Shown in pieces: positions 11,072 through 44,937 of a stretch of 64,000 nucleotides of DNA. The DNA is from a virus. The translations under genes were made by a program, and so were the position numbers. The DNA is taken from positions 148,343-212,342 of the IMG/VR virus record IMGVR_UViG_3300046170_000378. One strand, 5' to 3'. How positions within the stretch are numbered: position 1 is the stretch's first letter; each line of letters begins with the position of its first letter. The notes below the pieces were generated by a model. It saw only the letters and a program-made list of their open reading frames with translations. It had not been told where the DNA came from and did not search any database.

Positions 11072-11738
11072 ATGAGCGAAGACAAAAAGAAAAGCATTTC
11101 GGATCAAGCTGATGAAATCAGAAAAGAATTAGATGCTTTAATAGGTGAAAATCAAATGGATGTAGAAACAGATCCGACCGATTTACCAATGATACAGAGA
11201 GAAACTAGTTTAGCTCCTGTAAATTATACCGAATTAAAATCAAGTGCTGCTAAAAAAGCAACAAAAACTATTACGTCCCTGATGAAGTTTTATCTCGATG
11301 CAGATATTATTGAAAAGGACGAATATATTCAAGCAAAAAAGAAAATGGATGAAATGACAATGTCGTCATTGATCTATCAACTACAGGCAGGCGAAAGAGC
11401 ACTTACAACACTATTAGAAACTATAGATTCTGGAGAATTGGCACCAAGGATGTTCGAAGTACTTGCAACTCTACAGAAATCAATGTTAGATATTATTAAA
11501 TCTCAGACCATGTATTTAATGGCTGCAGAAGAATCTACTAAAAGAATAGCCAGAGATATTGAGATTTATAGAAAAAGAGATGATGTTGCAGAAATTGAAG
11601 CAGCCGGTGGAGATTCATCAGAAAGAAATGTACAAAGAGGGTACAAAAGATTTAATGGCTGCAATTCAAGCAGGTATTAATCAAACAAAAGAAGAAGATA
11701 TAGAAGACGTCGATATAGAAGAGTCTGACGAAGAATAA
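11072..11738 (+). CDS. Terminase small subunit (gp16-like), frame broken near its end
   Basis: About 221 residues when one extra A in the AAA at 11622-11624 is discounted. Without that correction the frame ends at 11680 in an unrelated tail, and with it the frame runs to TAA 11736-11738, overlapping the large-subunit ATG by one base. The protein is helical and acidic with a central coiled region, fitting a small terminase that recognises DNA and regulates the packaging motor. It is assigned by position directly upstream of the large subunit and by helical composition. Small terminases are poorly conserved. Confidence 0.65.
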
Positions 11739-13571
11739 TGAGCGATTACGTAGGAGACAATAAATGGATACCAAAAGAAGACACTGCACAAGCAGCTTCT
11801 GATAGGATTGTTTGGTCTACTAAACAAGTAGACGATCTTATGCTTGCACTTGATCAAGGGTACAGGCCAAAGGTTGCAATGCCATTTTATGAAGGTAAAC
11901 AGTTTCTACGTAAAGGTAATATTGTATTTGAATACACAGATGAAGAAATTACTGAATTAGCTAGATGTGCTCAAGACATCGTTTACTTTGCAGAAAAATA
12001 TGCAGTAGTAATGACAGATGATGGTATTCAACAAGTAAAACTTAGAGAATATCAAAAAAGAATGTTGAGAAACTTTCAAAATGAAAGATTTAACATTGTT
12101 CTTGCATCTCGACAAATGGGTAAAACAGTAACTGCATCAATATTTAATGCGTGGTATGTTACTTTTAACACAGACAAAAATACACTTTTATTAGCTAATA
12201 AATCTGACTCGACAAAGGAAATTATAGATAAAGCAAAAGGTTGTAGTTGAAAATTTACCATTCTTCATGAAGCCTGGTATTATCAAATATGACGTGATGA
12301 ACGTGAGATGTGATAATGGTTGTCGATTAATAGGACAATCAACTACAGCAAAATCAGGTATTGGTTTTACAATTCACAACCTATACTTAGATGAGTTTGC
12401 CCACATTCACCCATCGATAGCCGATACTTTTTATGAAAATGTATATCCAACGCTATCGTCTTCTAAAGTTTCTAGAATTACTATTACTTCTACACCAAAC
12501 GGATTTAATAAATTTTATAATATTTATGCCGCTGCAGAACGAGGTGATAACGAATACCATGCAATGCGTATTGATTGGTGGGAACACCCAGACAGAGATG
12601 ACGCATGGTATGAAAGAGAGCTGGCAAATTTAGGTACTATTGAGGCATTTAATAAACAATATGGAAATGAATTTGTTTCGTCTTCAAACCTACTTCTAGA
12701 TCCAGTCGATATGAAGAAAATGCGTAAGCGTATGAAAAAATATATTCATAACGAGTTTGATCAATTTGATTACATTAGTATTGATGTAAAAGACTATTTA
12801 ACATGGGACCCTGAATTTGATATTGAAACATGTAAAGATGGTGGCAATTTTTGGTTATTTTCGGTAGATATAGCAGAAGGAAATGGAGGTGATTATTCAG
12901 TGATTAATATTTTTAAAATAGATCACATGAATGAACAAGAAATAAAAAACGTTGTAAATCCTGGAGCGATGTATGATTTCTTTAAATTTAAACAAGTTGC
13001 AGTCTTTAGGTCTAACGAACATGTTATTGAAGATTTTGCTAAAATACTATATACACTAAGCGTTGATATTTTCAATCCAGAGAATGTTAAGATGGTAGTA
13101 GAATACAACACATATGGTACTGTACTTTTCCAATACTTAGGAACTGTGTTTCCGCAAAGAAACGATTTTGATGAAGAGATGATTGTTAGATTTAAGCACA
13201 GACATGATAGTAAAACACTAAAACCAGGAATAAAATTAAAAACAGATAATAAAGCAATATTTTGTCAGAATTTTGCAAAATTATACAAGATAAATAGATT
13301 AGATTTGACAGATGAATCAACGATAGTAGAAGCTAGTTTGTTTGGTACATTAAGAAATGGAAGTTACGGAGCTCAAATGGGAAATGACGATACCATTATG
13401 ACAGCGATTACCGGAACAGAATTTTTTAATACCACAGACTATGCAGATTATATTGAGGAACTCTTAGATGTCATTGACCCTGATGTCCACGATGCAATGG
13501 AAAGAATCTTATTTAAAGATAACTCTGAGCAAGGGGATTTACAGTTTGACATTTATGATCTGCTTAAATAA
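11738..13571 (+). CDS. Terminase large subunit (gp17-like), frame broken
   Basis: DNA-packaging motor ATPase and nuclease, about 610 residues, the same size as T4 gp17 (610). The N-terminal ATPase shows Walker A S-R-Q-M-G-K-T at about 124-130, Walker B L-Y-L-D-E-F-A-H and the coupling motif T-S-T-P-N-G. The C-terminal RNase H-fold nuclease begins at F-S-V-D-I-A-E-G-N-G-G-D-Y-S and includes later V-V-E-Y-N and G-N-D-D-T. One extra G at GG 12239-12240 breaks the frame; removing it joins the two halves as A-K-V-V-V-E-N-L-P-F. It works with the small terminase and the portal, which is not in the window. Confidence 0.93.
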
Positions 13572-17148: not shown

Positions 17149-17188
17149 GCACAGAAAATATATTATATTATTAACATATCAAAATATT

Positions 17189-17411
17189 ATGAATAACAAT
17201 AAATTAACCAAAAAAGCTCCAAGTGCTTCTAACAGAAGCCGAAGTACGAGAGGTTAATCGGGTTATTTTAAATGAAGCATTAGAAACAGAAACTCGCCCA
17301 GTATCAGTAAGTGCATGGATACGAGATCTTATTCAAAAAGAGTTATCTTTAAAAACACCCGATCAAAAATCAATTTTAAAACAAACACTTAAAAACCTAA
17401 AAGACAAATAA
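17189..17411 (+). CDS. Ribbon-helix-helix-like small protein, frame broken
   Basis: About 73 residues if one A of the A6 run near 17210 is removed. The joined start reads M-N-N-N-K-L-T-K-K-L-Q-V-L-L-T-E-A-E-V. A short beta strand followed by T-E-A-E-V-R-E-V-N and S-V-S-A-W-I-R-D-L-I-Q-K-E-L matches the CopG/Arc ribbon-helix-helix layout, which would make it a DNA-binding regulator. As sequenced, the ATG frame stops after 22 codons and the rest lacks an ATG (GTG at 17223). Confidence 0.5.
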
Positions 17412-17412
17412 T

Positions 17413-18652
17413 ATGAGTGACGAATTAAACAAAAAAGAAGAAGCGGCTAAAAGGGCTCTAGAGTCAAAGGACGCTATTAATCAATCTTCTGTTCCAGAAA
17501 ACACAGAAGAAGTTTCTAACATGGAAGCCGTAATCGATAGTCAAGGATTAGGTAAAGTTAATATGGGTTCATTTAACCCACCAAAAGCTGCACCTTCTGA
17601 TGATCTATTAGGATGGCATGTTGAGAATTTAGATAATTTGCCTTCAAAGGGTAAATTCTATCCAGCAGATACTATTATTAAGATTAGATCTGCAAAGGCA
17701 GCAGAGATTAGACATTTCTCTACAATGGACGATAACAATTATATCGACATGGAAGAAAAGCTAAACGCTATTGTAGAATCTTGTGCTAAAATCATGTCAG
17801 GTGATAGAAGATTATCTTACAAAGATATTTTAGAAGAAGACAGAATTGTACTTCTTTTGAGTATTAGAGACTTAACTTTCCCAGAACCTGAAAATAAGTT
17901 AATCCTAAAGGGTAAAACTAAAAAAGGTAAAAAGACAGTTGAAATTGAATTAGCAACTAAAAACTTAGTACCTACTGTGATTGAACCAGAAATTGAAAAA
18001 TATTACAATTCTGGAGAAAGAATCTACACAATCCAAACTAGATCAGCTGGTGAAATCAGAATGAAACCACCTACAATTGGTGTAATGGAAGAAGTAACTG
18101 CTTACTTAAAAGATCGTCAAGAAAAAGAGATCGAAATGGATAAAGCATTTATTCAAGTTTTACCATATATTGTTGGTGATTGGAGATCTTTATCACTTCC
18201 TAAGATATTTCAATTAGAAGTTGATTATAAAGGTTGGGATGATAGAAAATACATGATCGTTTATAGATTAGCAGAAAAAATGAGAATTGGTGTACAAACA
18301 ACACTTGAAACAGAAATCGATGGGGAGATCGCAACGGCCCCTCTTGACTTCCCAGGTGGCATCAAAAGTCTTTTCATTATTTCAGATCTCTCTGCAGAAC
18401 TACTTTAAGACTAAGTTCTACCTGGGTATACATCTTAGAATGCAGCCCTCGGAGATTGAAGAAATGTACTACTATGAATATTGGTATTATGTTCAAAATC
18501 TTCAAGAGTACATTAAGGCTAAGAATAAACAAACATCGGAACAACAAGAACAACAGGAGAAACAATCGGCCGCTATGAGATCGCAGTCCTCTCCTAAGAT
18601 GCCCAAAGTTCCATCAATGAAAGCACCTTCGTTTAAGATGCCGAAATTGTAA
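17413..18652 (+). CDS. Baseplate hub protein (gp26/T4_baseplate family), frame shift near C-terminus
   Basis: A hydrophilic ~65-residue head is followed by L-P-S-K-G-K-F-Y-P, the hallmark of T4 gp26-type hub proteins, then V-L-L-L-S-I-R-D-L-T-F and a long alpha/beta body. Frame 1 stops at 18408. A second frame overlapping it (18287-18652) continues with F-K-T-K-F-Y-L-G-I-H-L-R-M, then E-M-Y-Y-Y-E-Y-W-Y-Y-V-Q-N-L, and has no ATG of its own. I read this as one ~413-residue gene with an indel near 18390-18405. A programmed shift, as in tail-assembly chaperones encoded just before tape-measure genes, is the alternative. Confidence 0.6.
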
Positions 18653-37096: not shown

Positions 37097-38236
37097 ATGC
37101 AAAAATTTAGTAACTTTATGCTTCTTAGAGAAGCTGAAACCAAACTTAAAGTTAATGTACCTTCGGATATATTAGACTTATACAATCTTTTCAAAAAGAA
37201 TGGTAAAGAATTGTATGTGGTTGGTGGTGCAGTACGAGATGCATTATTAGGTAAAAAACCAAAAGACTTTGATTTGGCTACTGACGCATTTCCTGCAGAA
37301 GTTATTGATATTGTTACTAAAGGAGGTTATTCAACAACAGGTGAAGTTGGACACCAATTTGGTGTAGTTATTGTAAACGTACCTTCTGATCCAGCGGGTG
37401 TTGAGATTGCTACTTTTAGAGAAGACATTGGAAAGGGTAGAAGACCAGATGCAGTTGAGTATTCTACTATTGATAAAGATGTACTAAGACGAGATTTAAC
37501 AATCAATGCACTGTTCTATGATATGGGCAGACAAGAGGTTGTTGATTTAGTTGGTGGTTTGGATGATATAAAAAATTCAAAGATTAGAACTGTAGGTGTT
37601 GCAGCTGATAGATTCGCTGAAGATCCTTTAAGAAAACTAAGAGCTTTAAGATTTGCTGGTAGAACTGGATCAAACTTAGAAGAAGAAACTGCTAATGCCA
37701 TTTTAACAGATAATAGTTTAGAAGGTATTAGTGCAGAGAGAATTAGAGATGAGTTTAAAAAATCTATAGTTTCTGCTAAGTCCGCTAAGAAGTACTTAGA
37801 GATGGTCTCTGAATTCAACCTGTGGTCTGTTATGTTTCCTACATTAGAGATCAATAAAAAATTCATAGACACCAATACTTGGCTTGTTCAATTGGGTACA
37901 CTGTTTATTGCCAATGAACATAAAAAAGAAATGAACAAACTTACATTTACCAATGATGAGATTGATGCATGTATTTTCTTAAAGAGAATCATGGCGTTCG
38001 ATGTAAATGACGTGTTTGATTTACATAAGCAATTTAAAAACACCAACATGGACAAGAAAGAAGTTCTTGAATTTGCAAAAATACACAAATTAGATATTAA
38101 AACCTTGAAGGCGTTCTTTAAATATAAACCAACTACTAATGGTAAGGATGTAATGAAAGAGTTCGGCATCAAAGGACCAGAAGTTGCAATAAAGATAAAA
38201 CAAATAGAATCAGATAAATTTAAAAAGACTATTTAA
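37097..38236 (+). CDS. CCA-adding tRNA nucleotidyltransferase (poly(A) polymerase family)
   Basis: 379 residues. Class II nucleotidyltransferase: V-V-G-G-A-V-R-D at 41-48, metal-binding D-F-D at 57-59, R-R-D-L-T-I-N-A near 130 and A-E-D-P-L-R-K-L-R-A-L-R-F-A near 173. It adds or repairs the 3' CCA of tRNA. At least seven tRNAs here lack an encoded CCA, so the enzyme would complete them. The first residues (F-S-N-F-M-L-L-R-E-A) precede the normal fold and resemble a capsid-targeting peptide. It overlaps the thioesterase by one base. Confidence 0.88.
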   Translation: MQKFSNFMLLREAETKLKVNVPSDILDLYNLFKKNGKELYVVGGAVRDALLGKKPKDFDLATDAFPAEVIDIVTKGGYSTTGEVGHQFGVVIVNVPSDPAGVEIATFREDIGKGRRPDAVEYSTIDKDVLRRDLTINALFYDMGRQEVVDLVGGLDDIKNSKIRTVGVAADRFAEDPLRKLRALRFAGRTGSNLEEETANAILTDNSLEGISAERIRDEFKKSIVSAKSAKKYLEMVSEFNLWSVMFPTLEINKKFIDTNTWLVQLGTLFIANEHKKEMNKLTFTNDEIDACIFLKRIMAFDVNDVFDLHKQFKNTNMDKKEVLEFAKIHKLDIKTLKAFFKYKPTTNGKDVMKEFGIKGPEVAIKIKQIESDKFKKTI

Positions 38237-38622
38237 TGGAATTAATTTCAACACACCCTGTTAAAAAATCAGATTTAGGTTTTCATGGTAATCTTTTCGG
38301 TGGTAAATTATTAGCATGGGTAGATGCAGCTGGCGCATCTTACGCATCTCAGGTATGTGATACGCCAAGAATGGTAACAGTACTTATTGACGAGTGTGTA
38401 TTTAAGAAACCTGCAAAAGAAGGACATTTACTTAAAATTTACGGAGAAGTAGAAACCATAGGTAGAACTTCAGTAATATTAAAGGTTGAGGCTAGATCAC
38501 ATAATGTGTATGATGGAAGGCAAGCTATTATTCTTGCTACAAATATTAAATTTGTTAGAATAGATGAACAAGGGGAAGCAATTCCTATTAGTCAAAGGGT
38601 AAAAGATAAATTTAAGAAATAA
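38236..38622 (+). CDS. Acyl-CoA thioesterase, hotdog fold (YciA/BACH type)
   Basis: 128 residues, the usual single-hotdog length. H-G-N-L-F-G-G-K-L-L-A-W-V-D-A-A-G near 18-34 is the family's catalytic helix region with the Asp. V-D/V-L-I-D-E-C-V-F-K-K-P and the C-terminal F-V-R-I-D follow. It hydrolyses acyl-CoAs to free fatty acid and CoA. In a phage it may alter host lipid metabolism, an inferred role. Coupled to the CCA enzyme. Confidence 0.8.
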   Translation: MELISTHPVKKSDLGFHGNLFGGKLLAWVDAAGASYASQVCDTPRMVTVLIDECVFKKPAKEGHLLKIYGEVETIGRTSVILKVEARSHNVYDGRQAIILATNIKFVRIDEQGEAIPISQRVKDKFKK

Positions 38623-38681
38623 GAGTAATATATACTAGCCATAGTTATTTTAGCCATGGAAAGTAAGAAACAATAATAGCA

Positions 38682-38822
38682 ATGAATAACGAGCAACAAA
38701 ACGGTAACACTCAGTTAAATCAAGACAGAAACGCTTTCAATCAGAAAGTAAGTAAACTATCTATGTTAGGCAGAACTAAGAAAGTTCAATGGTCTAATAG
38801 ACGTAGATGGAGAAACGTGTAA
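38682..38822 (+). CDS. Small basic protein (46 aa)
   Basis: Asn/Gln-rich first half, basic end (W-S-N-R-R-R-W-R-N-V). 14 bp before the MarC-like gene. Unknown. Confidence 0.45.
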   Translation: MNNEQQNGNTQLNQDRNAFNQKVSKLSMLGRTKKVQWSNRRRWRNV

Positions 38823-38836
38823 ACACATAAAATCTT

Positions 38837-39430
38837 ATGGAATTTTTATTAAACGTCTTAACGGTGTTTTTAACACTGTTCGCTGTCATAGATATGCCAG
38901 GAAACGTACCTTTGATTATTAAGCTACGTAAAGAAAATGGTGAAATAGAATCTCTAAAATCTACAATAATAGCCACGGTTATTATGGTCTCAATTCTATT
39001 TGTAGGGCAAACTTTATTTAGACTTTTGGGAATTGAAACATTTCACTTTGCATTGGCAGGCGCGATGCTTCTCCTATATTTCGGTGTTAAGATGGTACTA
39101 GGGATAGAATCAGAATCTAATTCAGAACCAATGCCAGCAACTATATTTCCAATAGCATTTCCAATTATAGCAGGACCAGGAACCTTATCAACTATCATGT
39201 CACTGACTCAAGATTTAAGTAATATTGAAATTATTTTGGGTATTATATTGAATGCTATAATGATTTACATATTCTTAAAGACAGCACCTTGGATTCAAAA
39301 CAAATTAGGCGTTGTTGGAATTACTATTATGGAGAGAGTCTTTGGAATCTTACTAGTTGCCATTGGAATGAAAATACTAATCAATTCTTTGGTACTAAGT
39401 GTTGTTGCAGCTCAATCAGCGATAGGCTAA
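38837..39430 (+). CDS. MarC-family integral membrane protein
   Basis: 197 residues, about six hydrophobic spans. Family features: F-A-V-I-D-M-P-G-N-V-P near 15-25, A-L-A-G-A-M-L-L near 73 and A-F-P-I-I-A-G-P-G-T-L-S-T near 109-121. MarC/UPF0056 proteins are inner-membrane proteins of uncertain function. Host-derived in appearance. The 147 nt downstream hold no recognised feature. Confidence 0.82.
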   Translation: MEFLLNVLTVFLTLFAVIDMPGNVPLIIKLRKENGEIESLKSTIIATVIMVSILFVGQTLFRLLGIETFHFALAGAMLLLYFGVKMVLGIESESNSEPMPATIFPIAFPIIAGPGTLSTIMSLTQDLSNIEIILGIILNAIMIYIFLKTAPWIQNKLGVVGITIMERVFGILLVAIGMKILINSLVLSVVAAQSAIG

Positions 39431-39577: not shown

Positions 39578-39946
39578 TTAGTACAGTATTTGTTTAGGAT
39601 ATTTTTCAAATAAGATATATCCGGATCTAATTCTAGCATCTACGTGAGGAGTAGCGTAGTCAACTATTTCTACTATTTTAGATAATTCCACATTGTCTTC
39701 ACCTTCTAATTTAGGATTATCAAAATAAGCATATCTGTTTTTATCAAAAACCTTTTGCATAATAATCCACTTGGAGATAAAGTAATCCATCTCATCTTTA
39801 AGCCTTTCTAAATGTAAAAGATGTGGAGAAACTTTCTTGCTAAGGTAAGATTTATCAACCGATTCCAAATAAGCATATAAAACATATTGCTTATGTTCAA
39901 AATCAACTGGAGCTTGAGAATACCAATCTAAATCTAATAGCTTCAT
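39578..39946 (-). CDS. Hypothetical protein (122 aa)
   Basis: First-to-end member of the minus-strand island. Helical, Tyr-rich, no signal peptide. Preceded by GATATATA only 4 nt before its ATG and by the terminator of the next gene, so it may be a leaderless late transcript. No family recognised. Confidence 0.6.
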   Translation of the reverse strand: MKLLDLDWYSQAPVDFEHKQYVLYAYLESVDKSYLSKKVSPHLLHLERLKDEMDYFISKWIIMQKVFDKNRYAYFDNPKLEGEDNVELSKIVEIVDYATPHVDARIRSGYILFEKYPKQILY

Positions 39947-39950
39947 AATT

Positions 39951-39958
39951 TATATATC
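39951..39958 (-). promoter_or_regulatory. Late promoter-like box GATATATA, minus strand
   Basis: GATATATAAATT reading leftwards, directly before the gene ending at 39578. The short distance to the ATG makes it less certain than the other copies. Confidence 0.4.
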
Positions 39959-39984
39959 AAAAAAAAGAGGGCCGAAGCCCTCTT
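39958..39984 (-). terminator. Terminator of minus-strand island
   Basis: Stem AAGAGGGC (39965-39972) with GCCCTCTT (39977-39984), loop CGAA. Read on the minus strand it is followed by eight T, two bases after the lipoprotein stop. Confidence 0.85.
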
Positions 39985-39986
39985 TC

Positions 39987-40259
39987 TTATTGTCCATGTA
40001 CTTCACTTTTTACAATGAAGATATATTCACCAGGTCGTTCGGGATCTGGTTTGAAATCAATATCAATTATTTCATAATTAAATACTAATCTCATTGTCTC
40101 TCCTGGTTTTGCTCTCATAGTCCATGTTGTACCATAAGGATTTGCAAAATAATCTAGAATATCCACATCAGTATTAAAGTAGCGTGGAGATTTGATCTCT
40201 GAATAGTTAGCGCAACCAAATAGAGTTGCGAAGCATAAAAAAGTAAATAGTTTTTTCAT
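39987..40259 (-). CDS. Small lipoprotein (90 aa)
   Basis: Lipoprotein signal K-K-L-F-T-F-L-C-F-A-T-L-F-G-C with the lipobox Cys at 16, then a short Tyr/Asp-rich mature domain. Follows the large secreted protein by 14 bp and ends in a terminator, so the two are probably co-transcribed. It may be a periplasmic or outer-membrane partner; unknown. Confidence 0.7.
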   Translation of the reverse strand: MKKLFTFLCFATLFGCANYSEIKSPRYFNTDVDILDYFANPYGTTWTMRAKPGETMRLVFNYEIIDIDFKPDPERPGEYIFIVKSEVHGQ

Positions 40260-40273
40260 AATTAATTTTGTTT

Positions 40274-42073
40274 TTATCTAAATATGGTTATATGTCCGGA
40301 TCTTTGGTAAACTTCTGGAGAATTCCATTTACGTGCATAGAATGTATATGTGTAAACACCGTCTGAAACATAGCTCGGTCCATTATTAACACTTCCATTC
40401 CAATATGGATATGAATCAAAATCATCACCATATCCATGATAAATCTCACTACCCCATCTGTTAAAGACCCTAAACTCAACATCGACCCAGCAATTTAGAT
40501 CATAGATCATTTTCCATACATCGTTGATGCCATCGTTGTTAGGTGTAAATGTATTAGGTATAAAAACGGTCCATGGCCAGCATTCTTGCATACCGGGATC
40601 ATCAACACATGGCATACCGGTTTCGCAATCTACAGGAATGAACTCAGTTATAGTGTCTGTTAAATACACATACTCTACGACATCAATAAATGTGGTGTCA
40701 TATTGAGTTACATATAATGTATCAGTTATGAACACAGGAACCTCTACCTCAACAGTGTCTATCACATCAATATAAATAGTATCAGTTATGAACACAGGAA
40801 CCTCTACCTCAACGGTGTCTATTATGTTTACATAAACAGTATCGGTTATTGTTATCGTTTCATATTCACATGAACCATCGTCTTCTTCTGCATTTGGGTC
40901 AAAGTTAATTGCACATATATCTGTGCATCCTACTTCTGGCTCACACAGTGGAACAGGCGGTAAGTTCACAACAGTAGTGTTATTACCAGTAACTATTTCG
41001 TCATTAACAGTATTAACTTCTATTACAAATAATCCACCTTCAGACCAACCTTCTGGAAATACAAACTGTCCAGTATTAAATGTTTGACCTTCACCTGGCG
41101 GTATTTGTAAAATCATACTATCTCCACTATCATAACAAAACGTCGCGTCGGGATGCCAAAGTTCTACACAATATGTGTTCATATCAATGTCACCAGAATT
41201 AGTTATAGTAAATTGAACTTGATAATATGGATTTCCAGAGGCATCACAGCCGGTTATGAATTCAACATTTCCGGCTACTTGTGCATCTGTTGAGCCTTCA
41301 GGTGGATAGACACAGCTACCATCATCTTCAGTTGCATTTGGTTCATAATTTAATGCATCGGGATCGGTACAACCTGGAATAACAACAGTTTCGCAAATGA
41401 AATCTTCACCCTGGATCATTGCAGGTCCAGGATTGTCTTCTCTACAAACTGACCATGAATTATCACAATCCATATCTGGATATATTTGCACATTTGAAAG
41501 TGGCTGTTGTCCATCGTCATTAGCACCTAATTCAGCCCAACCTCCACCTGGGGCGTTAGGGCCATCATTTTGATACCATGAGTTTGAATAGTTTATTTGC
41601 CAAATAACAAACTCTACACATTCTCCTTGATCTAGCCAATAATCAATTACTGGAGCAGCACAGCAGCCTATTGCTGGAGAACCATCACAATTACCATTAC
41701 TTGGATTATCTAGCTCTACAACAAAGGTATCTCCAGTGTACAGTGGAAATTCTGAACTAGCATAATTTGATGGAAAATCAGAAGCTGATGGACCATACCA
41801 CCAACCAGGATGATTAGAAGTTGGTGCCATAAAACATGGACCATCGTCGTCTACATCGACAGCTTCATTTTGACCAGGAATATGAAAGCCAATCATTACC
41901 ATATTGACATGATCATTACTTCCATTATATCCAGTAGCTCCGCAGCCCTCGCCGTTAATGACTTCAACTGTAACTTCATAAGTATTTAAATTTACATCTG
42001 TAATTGCCAAATCACATTGACCTGAAATCACAAATACATGAAAAAACGTAAGTAAAAATAATAATCTTTTCAT
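40274..42073 (-). CDS. Secreted multidomain protein with T9SS type B sorting domain
   Basis: 599 residues. Signal peptide (R-L-L-F-L-L-T-F-F-H-V-F-V-I-S-G). Two G-C-T-D...N-Y/F-x-P-N-A-x-x-D-D-G-S-C modules near 235 and 385, common in marine Bacteroidota surface proteins. A beta-rich CARDB-like stretch lies between them. A repeated I-T-D-T-V/I-Y-V, E-V-E-V-P-V-F segment follows (about 410-470). The last ~98 residues, from I-P-N-T-F-T-P-N-N-D-G through F-R-V-F-N-R-W-G and W-N-G to H-I-T-I-F-R, are a gliding-motility-type C-terminal (T9SS type B) domain. Such proteins are exported by the host T9SS and held on the surface. Very unusual for a phage. Confidence 0.8.
   Translation of the reverse strand: MKRLLFLLTFFHVFVISGQCDLAITDVNLNTYEVTVEVINGEGCGATGYNGSNDHVNMVMIGFHIPGQNEAVDVDDDGPCFMAPTSNHPGWWYGPSASDFPSNYASSEFPLYTGDTFVVELDNPSNGNCDGSPAIGCCAAPVIDYWLDQGECVEFVIWQINYSNSWYQNDGPNAPGGGWAELGANDDGQQPLSNVQIYPDMDCDNSWSVCREDNPGPAMIQGEDFICETVVIPGCTDPDALNYEPNATEDDGSCVYPPEGSTDAQVAGNVEFITGCDASGNPYYQVQFTITNSGDIDMNTYCVELWHPDATFCYDSGDSMILQIPPGEGQTFNTGQFVFPEGWSEGGLFVIEVNTVNDEIVTGNNTTVVNLPPVPLCEPEVGCTDICAINFDPNAEEDDGSCEYETITITDTVYVNIIDTVEVEVPVFITDTIYIDVIDTVEVEVPVFITDTLYVTQYDTTFIDVVEYVYLTDTITEFIPVDCETGMPCVDDPGMQECWPWTVFIPNTFTPNNDGINDVWKMIYDLNCWVDVEFRVFNRWGSEIYHGYGDDFDSYPYWNGSVNNGPSYVSDGVYTYTFYARKWNSPEVYQRSGHITIFR
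40719..40822 (-). repeat. 60-bp-period repeat in T9SS protein gene
   Basis: Two near-identical 44-bp segments (40719-40762 and 40779-40822) encode the repeated D-T-V-E-V-E-V-P-V-F-I-T-D-T strand pattern. Confidence 0.85.
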
Positions 42074-43345
42074 TATCTAATAAATATTTTTCTAGTAATA
42101 ACAATACCACCGATGTATTCTTCTACCTGAATATAAAATCCTGGAGTTAGATCACCATACTCAGAGTATGTTCTACCTAATATGTCCACCCATTTTACTT
42201 CAACTATGTCATCATCTAAGTTTCTCACTAAATTTTTAAGATTACCTGATTCAATCATACCCGCATCTCCAGTATCACATTCAGTACCATAATTGACTAA
42301 AAATAAAGTAAGATCATTAACATCTACGACTCCGTCATAGTTAAAATCTGCAGGCAAACATGCTCCGGTTTGGGTGTGCCACGTCAAATAATCTAAAAAG
42401 TCATTGATATTAATATATCCGTTTCCGTCTAAATCCCATGGACAATTACCTAAATCACATCCACTACATTCATTATTAATAGCTGCAGTTCTACCCAATT
42501 CTAATTGAGCGTGCATTCTATTAATTTGACCAGGAGTAAATAAATCTTGACAATTATCAGGCGCATATGACATATAAGATTCGTCGACCTCATCTATATC
42601 TGGACAAGCATCTTGACACGACCAATCAATTGCAGTTGGGGGCGTATCACAAACCCTATCACCTTCAAGTTCACAATCAACTTCGTTAAGAGCAGTAGGT
42701 ACAAGAATAGTTGTTACCGAATAAGTCTCTAGAAAAAGTGTGAGATAATCCACACCAGTGTCCAGCCTCATGTGTAAATGTTTTAGAATCAGAATCTACT
42801 ACTTCTGTAGCTCTAACCCAAACACCAACATTAGCAGGTGGAAGAGCAGTAAATCCTAAAATTCCACCACTCCATTCACCAATGTAGACTTCCATAATGT
42901 CACCGGTGTTTTCACCTATTTCATTTTGAACTTGATTATAACAATATATTGGGTTACTACACCACGAAGATAATTCCGATTCTTCATAAAACCTAACATC
43001 CTCCAAACAAAAAGAAATATCAGTGTTATTGATTTCAAATTGTTCATTTAGATAATCAAATTCATTTTGAATGTCTAATTCAGTAAAATCATACGTGCTT
43101 TGAATAACGTGTATAATTGTAGGAATTGTTTTAAGTGTATTTTGTTGTCTCGCTAACTTTTTTTCTACAGCGTCCTGTAGAGCAAAGAAGGATCTAGCGA
43201 ACTTCTCATCTTTGAGCTCTTCGCTAGTAGTTATAGCTTGCCCACATTTCTCAACGTGATGTAAGCTCTTTTGTGCAATGGCAGTATTAATAGTCAATAG
43301 ACATACCACGGCACTCATAAAAACAGATAGTTTTTTGAGTTGCAT
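42073..43345 (-). CDS. Secreted pappalysin-like (M43B) metalloprotease with T9SS type A tail, frame broken
   Basis: About 423 residues after joining two frames at an indel near 42697. Signal peptide 1-24 (ends T-A-I-A-Q). A zinc-binding H-E-A-G-H-W-C-G-L-S-H at 192-202 matches the extended metzincin motif. Downstream G-D-R-V-C-D-T-P-P and S-Y-M-S-Y (Met-turn) are typical of M43B. Two EF-hand/dockerin-like repeats follow (D-L-D-G-N-G-Y-I-N-I-N-D-F and D-F-N-Y-D-G-V-V-D-V-N-D-L). The C-terminus (W-V-D-I-L-G-R, P-G-F-Y-I-Q-V, I-T-R-K-I-F-I-R) is a Por-type T9SS sorting tail. Stop and next start overlap (40274-42073 gene). Expected to cleave extracellular or surface proteins. Confidence 0.8.
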
Positions 43346-43388
43346 TTAATAACAGTTTATTTTGATTTCTAGCCCATAGAAGTTTAAA

Positions 43389-43422
43389 TGTCGGCGTTCC
43401 GACAGGGCATACCATATATATC
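43389..43422 (-). promoter_or_regulatory. Minus-strand late box and leader hairpin of the T9SS island
   Basis: GATATATA at 43415-43422 on the minus strand, 70 nt before the metalloprotease ATG. The leader holds a perfect 6-bp hairpin TGTCGG-CGTT-CCGACA... (43389-43404, read on either strand). The 242-nt gap to the lysis genes otherwise holds only AT-rich sequence and the plus-strand late box. Confidence 0.6.
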
Positions 43423-43587: not shown

Positions 43588-43830
43588 ATGGCATTTAAAG
43601 ACATATTTAAAGACAGTAATGACATTAATGAAAAAAATGTTGTAGGTTTTGCATCATTCGCAATCATGTCGCTGTTTGCACTGGCTGATTTGGTTACTGG
43701 TTTCTTTGGTGAAACATTAACTATTGACGATACTATTTTTAACTCATTTGTAATTGTTACTCTTGGTTCATTTGGTATCGATGGTGTTACTAAAATCTTC
43801 AAAAAATCTGAAGGTAATAAAGAAGGATAA
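43588..43830 (+). CDS. Holin-like membrane protein
   Basis: 80 residues with two hydrophobic spans (G-F-A-S-F-A-I-M-S-L-F-A-L-A-D-L and F-V-I-V-T-L-G-S-F-G-I) and a charged C-terminus (K-I-F-K-K-S-E-G-N-K-E). Size, topology and place upstream of the endolysin fit a class II-type holin. No family assigned. Confidence 0.6.
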   Translation: MAFKDIFKDSNDINEKNVVGFASFAIMSLFALADLVTGFFGETLTIDDTIFNSFVIVTLGSFGIDGVTKIFKKSEGNKEG

Positions 43831-43847
43831 AAAATACAAACTTAATA

Positions 43848-44042
43848 ATGAGAAAGAAGATGATAGCATTGTCGTTAAGTTCAATATTATTATTCGGATG
43901 TGGCGCTAGTAAGCCTGCATCGGACGGATGTTGCAAACAAGAGGCACATTTAACAGAAAGAGCAGCTGATGAAGGAATATTAAATGGTTTATTGTTTACA
44001 TTAATAACTTACGCGATACTTAGTACTTTAAAAATAAACTAA
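43848..44042 (+). CDS. Lipoprotein with C-terminal membrane span, spanin-like
   Basis: 64 residues. Lipobox L-L-F-G-C (Cys 18) at the N-terminus and a hydrophobic C-terminal span (G-L-L-F-T-L-I-T-Y-A-I-L). An outer-membrane lipid anchor plus inner-membrane span is the layout of unimolecular spanins, which fuse the two membranes at lysis, and the gene lies between holin and endolysin candidates. The linker is short compared with known u-spanins, so this is tentative. Confidence 0.55.
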   Translation: MRKKMIALSLSSILLFGCGASKPASDGCCKQEAHLTERAADEGILNGLLFTLITYAILSTLKIN

Positions 44043-44055
44043 GAATAAAGAGAAC

Positions 44056-44937
44056 ATGATTTTAAAGAAAGGAACAAGAGGTAAAGAAGTTAAACAACTC
44101 CAAGAGTATTTAGAAATAGGTGCAGATGGTGTATTCGGGCCTGGAACTGAAGCTGCAGTAAAAAAGTGGCAAAAAGAAAATAGCTTAGTAGTAGATGGCA
44201 TCGTTGGTCCTAAAACATGGGAAGCCATGGGATTAGCAACTACGGACGAAAGCGAGCAAGTTTATACAACTGATAATGGTTTAATTGTTAATAGACATTT
44301 CTTACCAAAGGGTGAATACTTAAATGGTCCATCTAAAAAAGAATATTGTTTCTTACACCACACAGCTGGTTGGAATAATCCATATAAAACTGTTAGAAAT
44401 TGGGGTAATGACACTAGAGGCCGCATTGCTACAGAGTTTGTGTTAGGTGGGCAAAAACTCACTAATGGTAACAATGACTACGATGGTGTAATGGTACAGT
44501 GTATGCCAGAAGGAGCATATGGATGGCATTTAGGCAAGAACGGATCACAGTATATGCACAAACATTCAGTAGGTATTGAAGTTAATAACTTTGGTTACTT
44601 AAAGAACGGTAAAGCATATCAAGGTAGTACTGCTCACGAATCTCAAATAGTAGAGTTAGCAGAATCATTTAGAGGCTACAAACAATGGCATAGATATTCA
44701 GATGCACAAATAGAAGCATTAGATAAATGGATTCGTTGGATTGGCGAAAGAGATGGTATTGATATTAGAGCTGGATTGCCAGCATTGGTTAAAGAAAAAG
44801 GTGCAGCGGCATTTGAGTGGAACGCAGACGCTTATTATGGTAAAGTCAAAGGTCTATGGACTCACACTAATACTAGAAAAGATAAGACTGATATGTTTCC
44901 ACAGCAGGAGCTTTTAGATTTATTAACTTCGTTATAA
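44056..44937 (+). CDS. Endolysin: PG-binding domain + N-acetylmuramoyl-L-alanine amidase
   Basis: 293 residues. N-terminal peptidoglycan-binding domain (1-58): L-K-K-G-T-R-G-K-E-V-K-Q-L-Q, D-G-V-F-G-P-G-T and D-G-I-V-G-P-K-T-W. The amidase domain has the zinc-ligand region F-L-H-H-T-A-G (99-105), G-W-H-L-G, H-S-V-G-I-E-V-N-N and, later, W-T-H-T-N-T-R-K-D-K-T-D. Cleaves the amide between MurNAc and L-Ala. A diverged copy occurs at 57560. Confidence 0.88.
   Translation: MILKKGTRGKEVKQLQEYLEIGADGVFGPGTEAAVKKWQKENSLVVDGIVGPKTWEAMGLATTDESEQVYTTDNGLIVNRHFLPKGEYLNGPSKKEYCFLHHTAGWNNPYKTVRNWGNDTRGRIATEFVLGGQKLTNGNNDYDGVMVQCMPEGAYGWHLGKNGSQYMHKHSVGIEVNNFGYLKNGKAYQGSTAHESQIVELAESFRGYKQWHRYSDAQIEALDKWIRWIGERDGIDIRAGLPALVKEKGAAAFEWNADAYYGKVKGLWTHTNTRKDKTDMFPQQELLDLLTSL

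Follow-up and report, generated by a model that had tools for sequence, protein, structure and literature searches.

Type B cargo proteins of the type IX secretion system (T9SS), among them SprB (with SprF) and PG1035 (with PorP), begin with a signal sequence and end in a CHU_C domain at the very C-terminus (PMC9143113). T9SS sorting domains have also been reported on phage proteins. In Cryophage, type A domains are found on an endoglucanase, a GH39 protein, and a PA14 protein, for which the authors, too, propose superinfection exclusion (PMC7468147), and gut phage contigs encode, near crAss-BACON open reading frames (ORFs), proteins with T9SS sorting domains upstream of head genes (PMC6949934). 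The locus described here is a minus-strand island in a 64,000-nucleotide stretch of viral DNA (the window), which is the final 64 kb of the 212,342-base IMG/VR virus record IMGVR_UViG_3300046170_000378 (G000:C1:148343-212342). The island encodes a 599-residue stalked protein ending in a T9SS type B domain and, next to it, a metalloprotease of family M43, and it is read here, with moderate confidence, as a phage cassette that would display the metalloprotease on the infected cell by way of the host T9SS.

The 599-residue protein and its relatives share with described type B cargo both the signal sequence and the extreme C-terminal CHU_C domain. They differ in being encoded by phages, in having an N-terminal domain (N-domain) for which two pattern scans gave no confirmed match on contigs of bacteria or archaea, and in that no PorP-like partner was found on 16 phage records, in a search whose control was silent as well. 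The Cryophage proteins are likewise phage-encoded and carry type A domains, whereas the present locus belongs to a type B family with an M43 partner in two phage lineages. The available portion of PMC6949934 describes neither the family nor the protease nor the type B link; a zinc metallopeptidase is reported from a flavobacterial phage in PMC8776804, which in its available portion does not mention the T9SS, and phage-encoded T9SS cargo is not treated in the available portion of PMC11205867. Among the papers listed in searches of the open-access literature, preprints aside, no description of the type B family, the M43 partner, or their fusion was found. T9SS tags on phage proteins are thus already in print, so far as isolated oddities in two papers (PMC7468147, PMC6949934). 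A conserved tag, combined with a domain so far seen only on viruses and with a protease partner, would make use of the host T9SS a recurring phage strategy.

The stalked protein and its family

The 599-residue protein consists of a signal sequence, the N-domain, a Cys-bracketed repeat, a second beta-rich part, a DT-repeat stalk, and the CHU_C domain. Residues 504-597 match the T9SS type B model PF13585 with 50.7 bits (cut-off 27), and TIGR04131 gives 35.0 bits, exactly at its cut-off of 35; among five relatives, three pass this cut-off (45.5, 47.1, and 38.1 bits) and two fall slightly short of it (33.1 and 31.9 bits). The Sec-type signal sequence (MKRLLFLLTFFHVFVISG followed by QCD) was recognized by eye; signal peptides and lipobox were judged throughout by a composition rule and by eye. 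An earlier note, made from the letters of this DNA alone, had described an island set against nearly all other genes and encoding a lipoprotein and two large secreted proteins that would leave through the host T9SS, perhaps to strip or mask receptors, loosen aggregates, or block superinfection. The orientation of the island, the type B C-terminal domain (CTD) and signal peptide of the 599-residue protein, a signal sequence on the N-terminal protease ORF, and a lipobox-like LFGC in the 90-residue protein were all found again. T9SS export of the 599-residue family protein is very likely, judging from the domain itself and from its conservation in a widespread family.

A scan with the single 599-residue protein yielded 8 viral loci, two of them with CHU_C. 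A pattern scan with the N-domain only yielded 13 viral loci (10 groups without near-identical copies), 11 of which (9 groups) end exactly in CHU_C; of the remaining two, L031 runs into the end of its contig and L032 has a broken frame. When ten aligned members were used as the query, 240 IMG/VR viral stretches were confirmed, with a CTD rate that is biased since the CTD pattern was partly used in the search, so that the N-domain-only sample is the cleaner one. From these 240 stretches 79 loci were kept. The 80 loci with a family ORF, one of them the window, form 52 groups at 90% identity, which derive partly from contig fragments (in 44 of the 52 each flank spans 700 bases or more). In all 59 ORFs that contain both N-domain and CTD the latter is terminal, after a spacer of 24-399 residues, and 53 of them have, by the composition rule, a signal-like segment ahead of the N-domain; of the six others four are truncated, one is fused (L045), and one lies just under the threshold (L057).

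The same layout, in which a signal sequence is followed by the novel N-domain, a variable stalk, and CHU_C at the C-terminus, recurs in crAss-like and in jumbo phages. A terminase cluster, whose representatives L003, L071, and L029 are terminases, lies within 2.4 kb of the family gene in 21 of the 52 groups, and a portal cluster (two representatives named) within 4.6 kb in 14. Matches to the L029 terminase are found in 156 phage records, some of them from crAss-like phages and others from Bacteroides, Flavobacterium, and Cellulophaga phages. A "crAss-type" label for 28 groups was set aside as its clusters are only partly named, and the 21 terminase groups are used instead. The jumbo relatives L021 and L028 come from records that share ribonucleotide reductase and clamp loader genes with the window record, and the L021 record also has a tail sheath.

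The N-domain aligned in 36 sequences has six invariant residues (C2, C26, C62, C192, W140, and W161). Its AlphaFold2 model from this alignment (A4) has a predicted local distance difference test score (pLDDT) of 73.6 and a predicted template modeling score (pTM) of 0.77, and fold searches were made with this model, the full-length model having a pLDDT of 51. Foldseek finds no match in the PDB at E ≤ 0.001 (best E 0.22), and sequence searches of the PDB with alignments A2 and A5 find none. Lamin Ig domains head the VIA-align 2 results (Z 5.8, root mean square deviation 3.9, 102 residues), a level at which, by the program's own caveat, resemblance can reflect no more than an arrangement shared by many folds. 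Three PDB sequence matches for alignment A4 (E 0.27-0.67) and a type III cohesin (Foldseek E 0.79) were not used. In BFVD the model matches two viral proteins, including A0A7S9STS8 of Virus NIOZ-UU157 (E 5.7e-9), which is annotated as a "Gliding motility-associated C-terminal domain-containing protein", so that a family member is already in the databases. Two pattern scans that covered 84,980 bacterial and archaeal species with one genome each gave 39 and 99 pattern matches, none of which was confirmed; since the same approach, though not exhaustive, succeeded on viral contigs, the N-domain looks virus-restricted.

L024 encodes, in tandem with its family gene, a second and shorter CHU_C protein (L024:9857-10747, 296 residues, 47.6 bits). 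L004-L009 encode short secreted proteins with a DT-repeat stalk, a DCETGMPC motif, and different ends (NLQGQVIRKPEDIYI and similar); these were rejected as family members, having only the stalk and the motif in common with it, on records without CHU_C. True type A tags are found on large proteins of some crAss-like members and of the L021 record (TIGR04183 27.1, 34.3, and 48.5 bits, cut-off 23). A recurrent cassette in crAss-like phages and the L021 record (L029:9770-13593, L037:775-6028) combines a type A-tagged large protein with a small membrane protein, a thioredoxin-like protein, and a beta-barrel-like protein of family A7, which has no match in NCBIfam or the PDB.

The metalloprotease and its fusion to the stalked protein in two relatives

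The protease gene was described in the earlier note as encoding a metalloprotease with a Por-type T9SS tail. The metalloprotease assignment stands as M43, with both the HExxHxxGxxH zinc site (HEAGHWCGLSH) and the Met-turn (SYMSY), in two ORFs rather than one open frame: the two motifs lie on separate ORFs with a frame break between them, and each ORF alone scores below the PF05572 cut-off of 23 (19.2 bits over model positions 56-89 for the N-terminal ORF, 22.0 bits over positions 87-152 for the C-terminal one). The frame change is placed here by all ten relative queries, and a search of IMG/VR found no near-identical copy of the region. The record as a whole is indel-prone, with frame changes at 5 of 37 homologous places queried with relatives; among the genes affected are those for the ribonucleotide reductase large subunit (G000:129640-131453) and an epimerase (window 62689-63575), and one change (17157-18454), in a collagen-like repeat protein, may be spurious. 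The terminase (window 11738-13571) is split as well. Because other conserved genes are broken too, sequencing or assembly error is the likely cause, and the break in the protease is probably an error of the record; a real pseudogene is the alternative not favored.

Intact single-ORF M43 relatives are present at L021, L028, L049, L052, and L068. Blastp relatives of the N-terminal ORF are those at L028, L068, L052, and L049, and PF05572 gives 53.7-67.6 bits in four relatives. All protease relatives were obtained through the neighborhoods of the 599-residue family, and IMG/VR pattern scans with the two protease halves matched 96 and 6 stretches, none of which was confirmed; the L028 protease matches one annotated phage record.

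The T9SS tail claimed for the protease, and with it this part of the proposed export, did not reach curated thresholds: TIGR04183 (cut-off 23) and PF18962 have no match in the window ORF or within the record, and among the relatives' proteases scanned TIGR04183 matches L052 only, with 12.0 bits. When the tails of six relatives were compared by hhalign with the CTDs of three phage type A proteins, the probability was 82%, for an alignment confined to the C-terminal half, so that a type A-like tail is suggestive only. The C-terminal ORF matches the GC-type dockerin model NF041540 with 29.0 bits, exactly at the cut-off of 29, and the model scores below it in L021 (22.9) and L044 (16.0); L021 exceeds the cut-off of Pfam Dockerin_1 (28.1 bits against 22.9), and no dockerin match is found in L042, L087, L091, or L078. 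The term dockerin-like, used below for secreted proteins with the calcium motif, is loose, as only some of these genes pass a curated model.

Genes are called adjacent when they lie on the same strand within 700 bases of the family gene. An adjacent M43 gene occurs in 6 of the 52 groups (the window, L021, L028, L049, L052/L053, and L068-L070), a dockerin-like gene in 14, and either in 17. None of the 942 ORFs farther off or on the other strand matches the M43 or dockerin-like motifs (202 ORFs are near and on the same strand), a contrast that is descriptive since the dockerin-like motif was written after the neighbors had been seen.

At two loci M43 and CHU_C are joined in one ORF, with 67.6 and 56.2 bits in L045 and 63.6 and 56.3 bits in L046. 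In L045 the N-domain scores 43 bits in the stretch between the two; in L046 it was recognized there by eye only. The closest PDB entries to the L046 protease part are the M43B pappalysins ulilysin and mirolysin (E 1e-23 to 1e-22), from which it differs in being phage-encoded and in sharing its chain, as in L045, with a novel domain, a stalk, and a type B tag. Mirolysin is itself a T9SS-secreted protease. With the fusions, M43 stands beside or within the family gene in 8 of the 52 groups and an M43 or dockerin-like partner is present in 19. Genes fused in one genome and neighbors in another are a classic sign of products that act together, and the fusions, taken with the M43 neighbor elsewhere, suggest this for the protease and the stalked protein.

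The gene order of the window is kept around the fused gene of L046, with the 90-residue lipoprotein, the 122-residue gene, and MarC on the opposite strand. The earlier note had suggested looking for the island in related phages and had named a chimera with a host contig as a possible source; L046 is an independent contig with the same order.

The source record and its phage

The window contains the terminase large subunit, spread across two ORFs, matches to tail sheath and tail tube proteins, and an endolysin, and the record also encodes a ribonucleotide reductase; the window is genuine phage DNA. The terminase has 2,213 matches among phage records, to phages of many hosts. Among the matches listed, uncultured huge phages are best (52% to LR756500), and the isolates at 27-31% include Flavobacterium phage MaF61, Sphingomonas phage PAU, Tenacibaculum phages PTm1 and PTm5, Xanthomonas phage X1, and Pseudomonas phage pf16, of which MaF61 and PTm1/PTm5 are at 30%. 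By this terminase kinship a Bacteroidota host is likely. The record ends within a gene for a secreted-looking DNA/RNA non-specific endonuclease (window 63554-64000, PF01223, 66.7 bits), and a second such endonuclease is encoded at L021:4476-5060 (87.4 bits).

Proposed mechanism and alternative explanations

The domain content, gene order, conservation, and fusion described above suggest a model of export, anchoring, timing, and substrate. The infected host would make a secreted M43 metalloprotease and the stalked protein, both of which would enter the periplasm through Sec by virtue of their signal peptides. The terminal type B domain would then take the stalked protein across the outer membrane through the host T9SS, and would probably remain on a host barrel of the PorP/SprF type. 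Published work makes type B cargo dependent on a cognate PorP-like protein and ascribes surface anchorage to PorP/SprF barrels (PMC9143113); with none found on the 16 phage records, the control being silent too, a host barrel would have to accept the phage cargo. The N-domain, projected off the cell by the DT-repeat stalk, would hold the protease or cooperate with it, the protease being retained by fusion in L045 and L046 and by an assumed contact with the stalked protein elsewhere. A protease tethered in this way at the surface is rather probable. It would most likely trim surface proteins of the infected cell, perhaps also of its neighbors, the candidate targets being adhesins exported by the T9SS, which are possible receptors of Bacteroidota phages, and the trimming would limit superinfection and the loss of progeny to debris.

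Receptor removal is favored as the purpose because SprB and RemA, both exported by the T9SS, may serve as phage receptors (PMC13288928) and because a receptor role has been proposed for gliding proteins in F. columnare and F. johnsoniae (PMC7345892). The fusion of M43 to CHU_C also favors the stripping of receptors over their masking. Receptor stripping is nevertheless a tentative assignment, and slightly more tentative still is the full proposal that at least two unrelated lineages of Bacteroidota phages share virus-restricted display proteins riding the T9SS, some of which hang a receptor-destroying metalloprotease outside the cell against T9SS-exported adhesins. If this is true, the cassette would be a phage counterpart, in its logic, of viral receptor-destroying enzymes, and the machine that displays the phage receptor would be turned into one that removes it. 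The family suggests a role at the cell surface that can be put to the test, and with T9SS-exported gliding proteins as suspected receptors it would connect gliding in abundant aquatic bacteria with infection and with superinfection exclusion.

Several observations weigh against the display of a receptor-stripping protease. No M43 gene stands beside or within the family gene in 44 of the 52 groups, and since in 44 groups the sequence extends for 700 bases or more to either side, this absence is not merely one of missing sequence. The window protease is frame-broken as it stands. PF11751 (PorP_SprF) was found on none of the 16 phage records, the control being likewise silent in every genome. Only 3 of 50,697 phage records match the family, in the CTD only, so that at that sensitivity no isolated Flavobacterium or Cellulophaga phage matched. 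The Bacteroidota host of the window phage is suggested by its terminase, for which isolates from Sphingomonas, Xanthomonas, and Pseudomonas stand beside the Bacteroidota phages at the same 27-31%.

The absence of a partner in the majority of groups fits an adhesin or lectin whose N-domain binds glycans or neighboring cells and makes the infected cell sticky or masks its receptors, M43 and dockerin-like proteins being optional. Neither an adjacent M43 or dockerin-like gene nor a fusion is present in 33 of the 52 groups, the N-domain has its six invariant Cys and Trp residues, and SprB, the main adhesin in gliding, is itself a type B cargo (PMC9143113). The recurrent protease neighbor and the fusions in L045 and L046 argue otherwise, as does the lack of a confident match of the N-domain to known folds, lectins included, and an adhesin is rather unlikely.

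An abundant type B cargo could also act simply as an export decoy, filling the PorP/SprF barrels or the translocon of the host and so keeping gliding adhesins away from the surface and preventing competing phages from adsorbing. Reports that type B cargoes have cognate PorP-like barrels (PMC9143113) and that gliding proteins are linked to phage sensitivity (PMC7345892) agree with this, as would the lack of a PorP-like barrel on the phage records, subject to the silent control. A conserved N-domain, a stalk, and a protease would, however, be superfluous for a pure decoy, which is accordingly improbable.

A virion or head-fiber protein, whose Ig-like domains would resemble CHU_C by chance, would explain the placement of the crAss-like genes beside terminase and portal genes, and predicted Ig-like folds are common on virions. 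The signal-like segments before the N-domain, CTDs that exceed curated T9SS thresholds in several members, and the distance of over 25 kb that separates the window gene from those for terminase and sheath make this very improbable. Least plausible by far, and rejected in the case of a host chimera, is that the island consists of recently captured host genes or a host-phage junction without phage function: the protease is frame-broken and CHU_C and M43 are known from hosts, but relatives occur on 240 viral stretches and none was confirmed on bacterial or archaeal genome contigs in the two pattern scans, the gene order is conserved in L046, and the GC content runs steadily through the island.

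Organization of the island and neighboring genes

The island ORFs (39578-43345) run against nearly all other long gene-like ORFs of the window, and the GC skew is negative at 40-43 kb with no break in GC content (Table 1). In minus-strand order they comprise the M43 metalloprotease (two ORFs in different frames), the 599-residue protein, and the 90-residue putative lipoprotein, followed by a terminator-like hairpin and the 122-residue gene. The protease stop and the start of the 599-residue gene overlap (TAATG), which suggests translational coupling, and the position of the hairpin after the lipoprotein gene places the 122-residue gene probably outside the unit. The late box that the earlier note had put at the head of the unit was not recovered: the T4-type sequence TATAAATA is absent from the ∼255 bases upstream, and it is not enriched in the window (9 on the plus and 3 on the minus strand, with 6.3 expected per strand).

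Table 1. Features of the island and its surroundings, with window positions.
Feature	Positions	Strand	Basis or remarks
M43 metalloprotease, N-terminal ORF, 219 residues	42686..43345	-	Signal sequence, propeptide-like part, zinc motif HEAGHWCGLSH
M43 metalloprotease, C-terminal ORF, 232 residues	42073..42771	-	Met-turn SYMSY, GC-type dockerin/EF-hand-like part, T9SS type A-like half tail (suggestive only)
Stalked, putative surface protein of 599 residues, ending in a T9SS type B domain	40274..42073	-	ORF and PF13585/TIGR04131 profiles
N-terminal domain, residues 19-216, predicted Ig-like, four invariant Cys	41426..42019	-	Alignment of 36 sequences, AlphaFold2
DT-repeat stalk, about residues 413-481	40631..40837	-	Sequence
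CHU_C / T9SS type B domain, extreme C-terminus	40277..40582	-	Profile matches
90-residue putative lipoprotein, in the unit of the 599-residue gene	39987..40259	-	Lipobox-like LFGC by eye; relative adjoins the fused gene in L046
Intrinsic-terminator-like hairpin, 9 pairs, palindromic stem	39964..39985	-	Hairpin listed on the plus strand; minus-strand T run read from the sequence
122-residue gene past the terminator	39578..39946	-	Relatives near the family gene in 3 other groups
Divergent neighbors: 80-residue membrane protein, 64-residue lipoprotein-like protein, amidase endolysin	43588..44937	+	ORFs, profiles

Among the divergent neighbors, the amidase endolysin matches PF01510 (39.6 bits) and PF01471 (58.2 bits), and the 80-residue membrane protein is holin-like by eye, with no family match. 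On the other side of the island, at 38236-39430, are encoded a membrane protein of the MarC family (113.8 bits) and a small protein assigned to PHROG 18230 (78.7 bits); MarC is also near the family gene in four groups besides that of the window, and DUF5675 is near it in 11 groups (one representative named). The L021 and L028 contigs, both of which also carry the cassette, each encode a TonB-dependent receptor (L021:5144-7858 and L028:12213-14951; PF07715, 48.0 and 50.9 bits), the two being 73% identical to each other, and a secreted fasciclin-domain protein is encoded ∼2.8 kb upstream of the family gene at L028:4485-5120 (PF02469, 87.2 bits).

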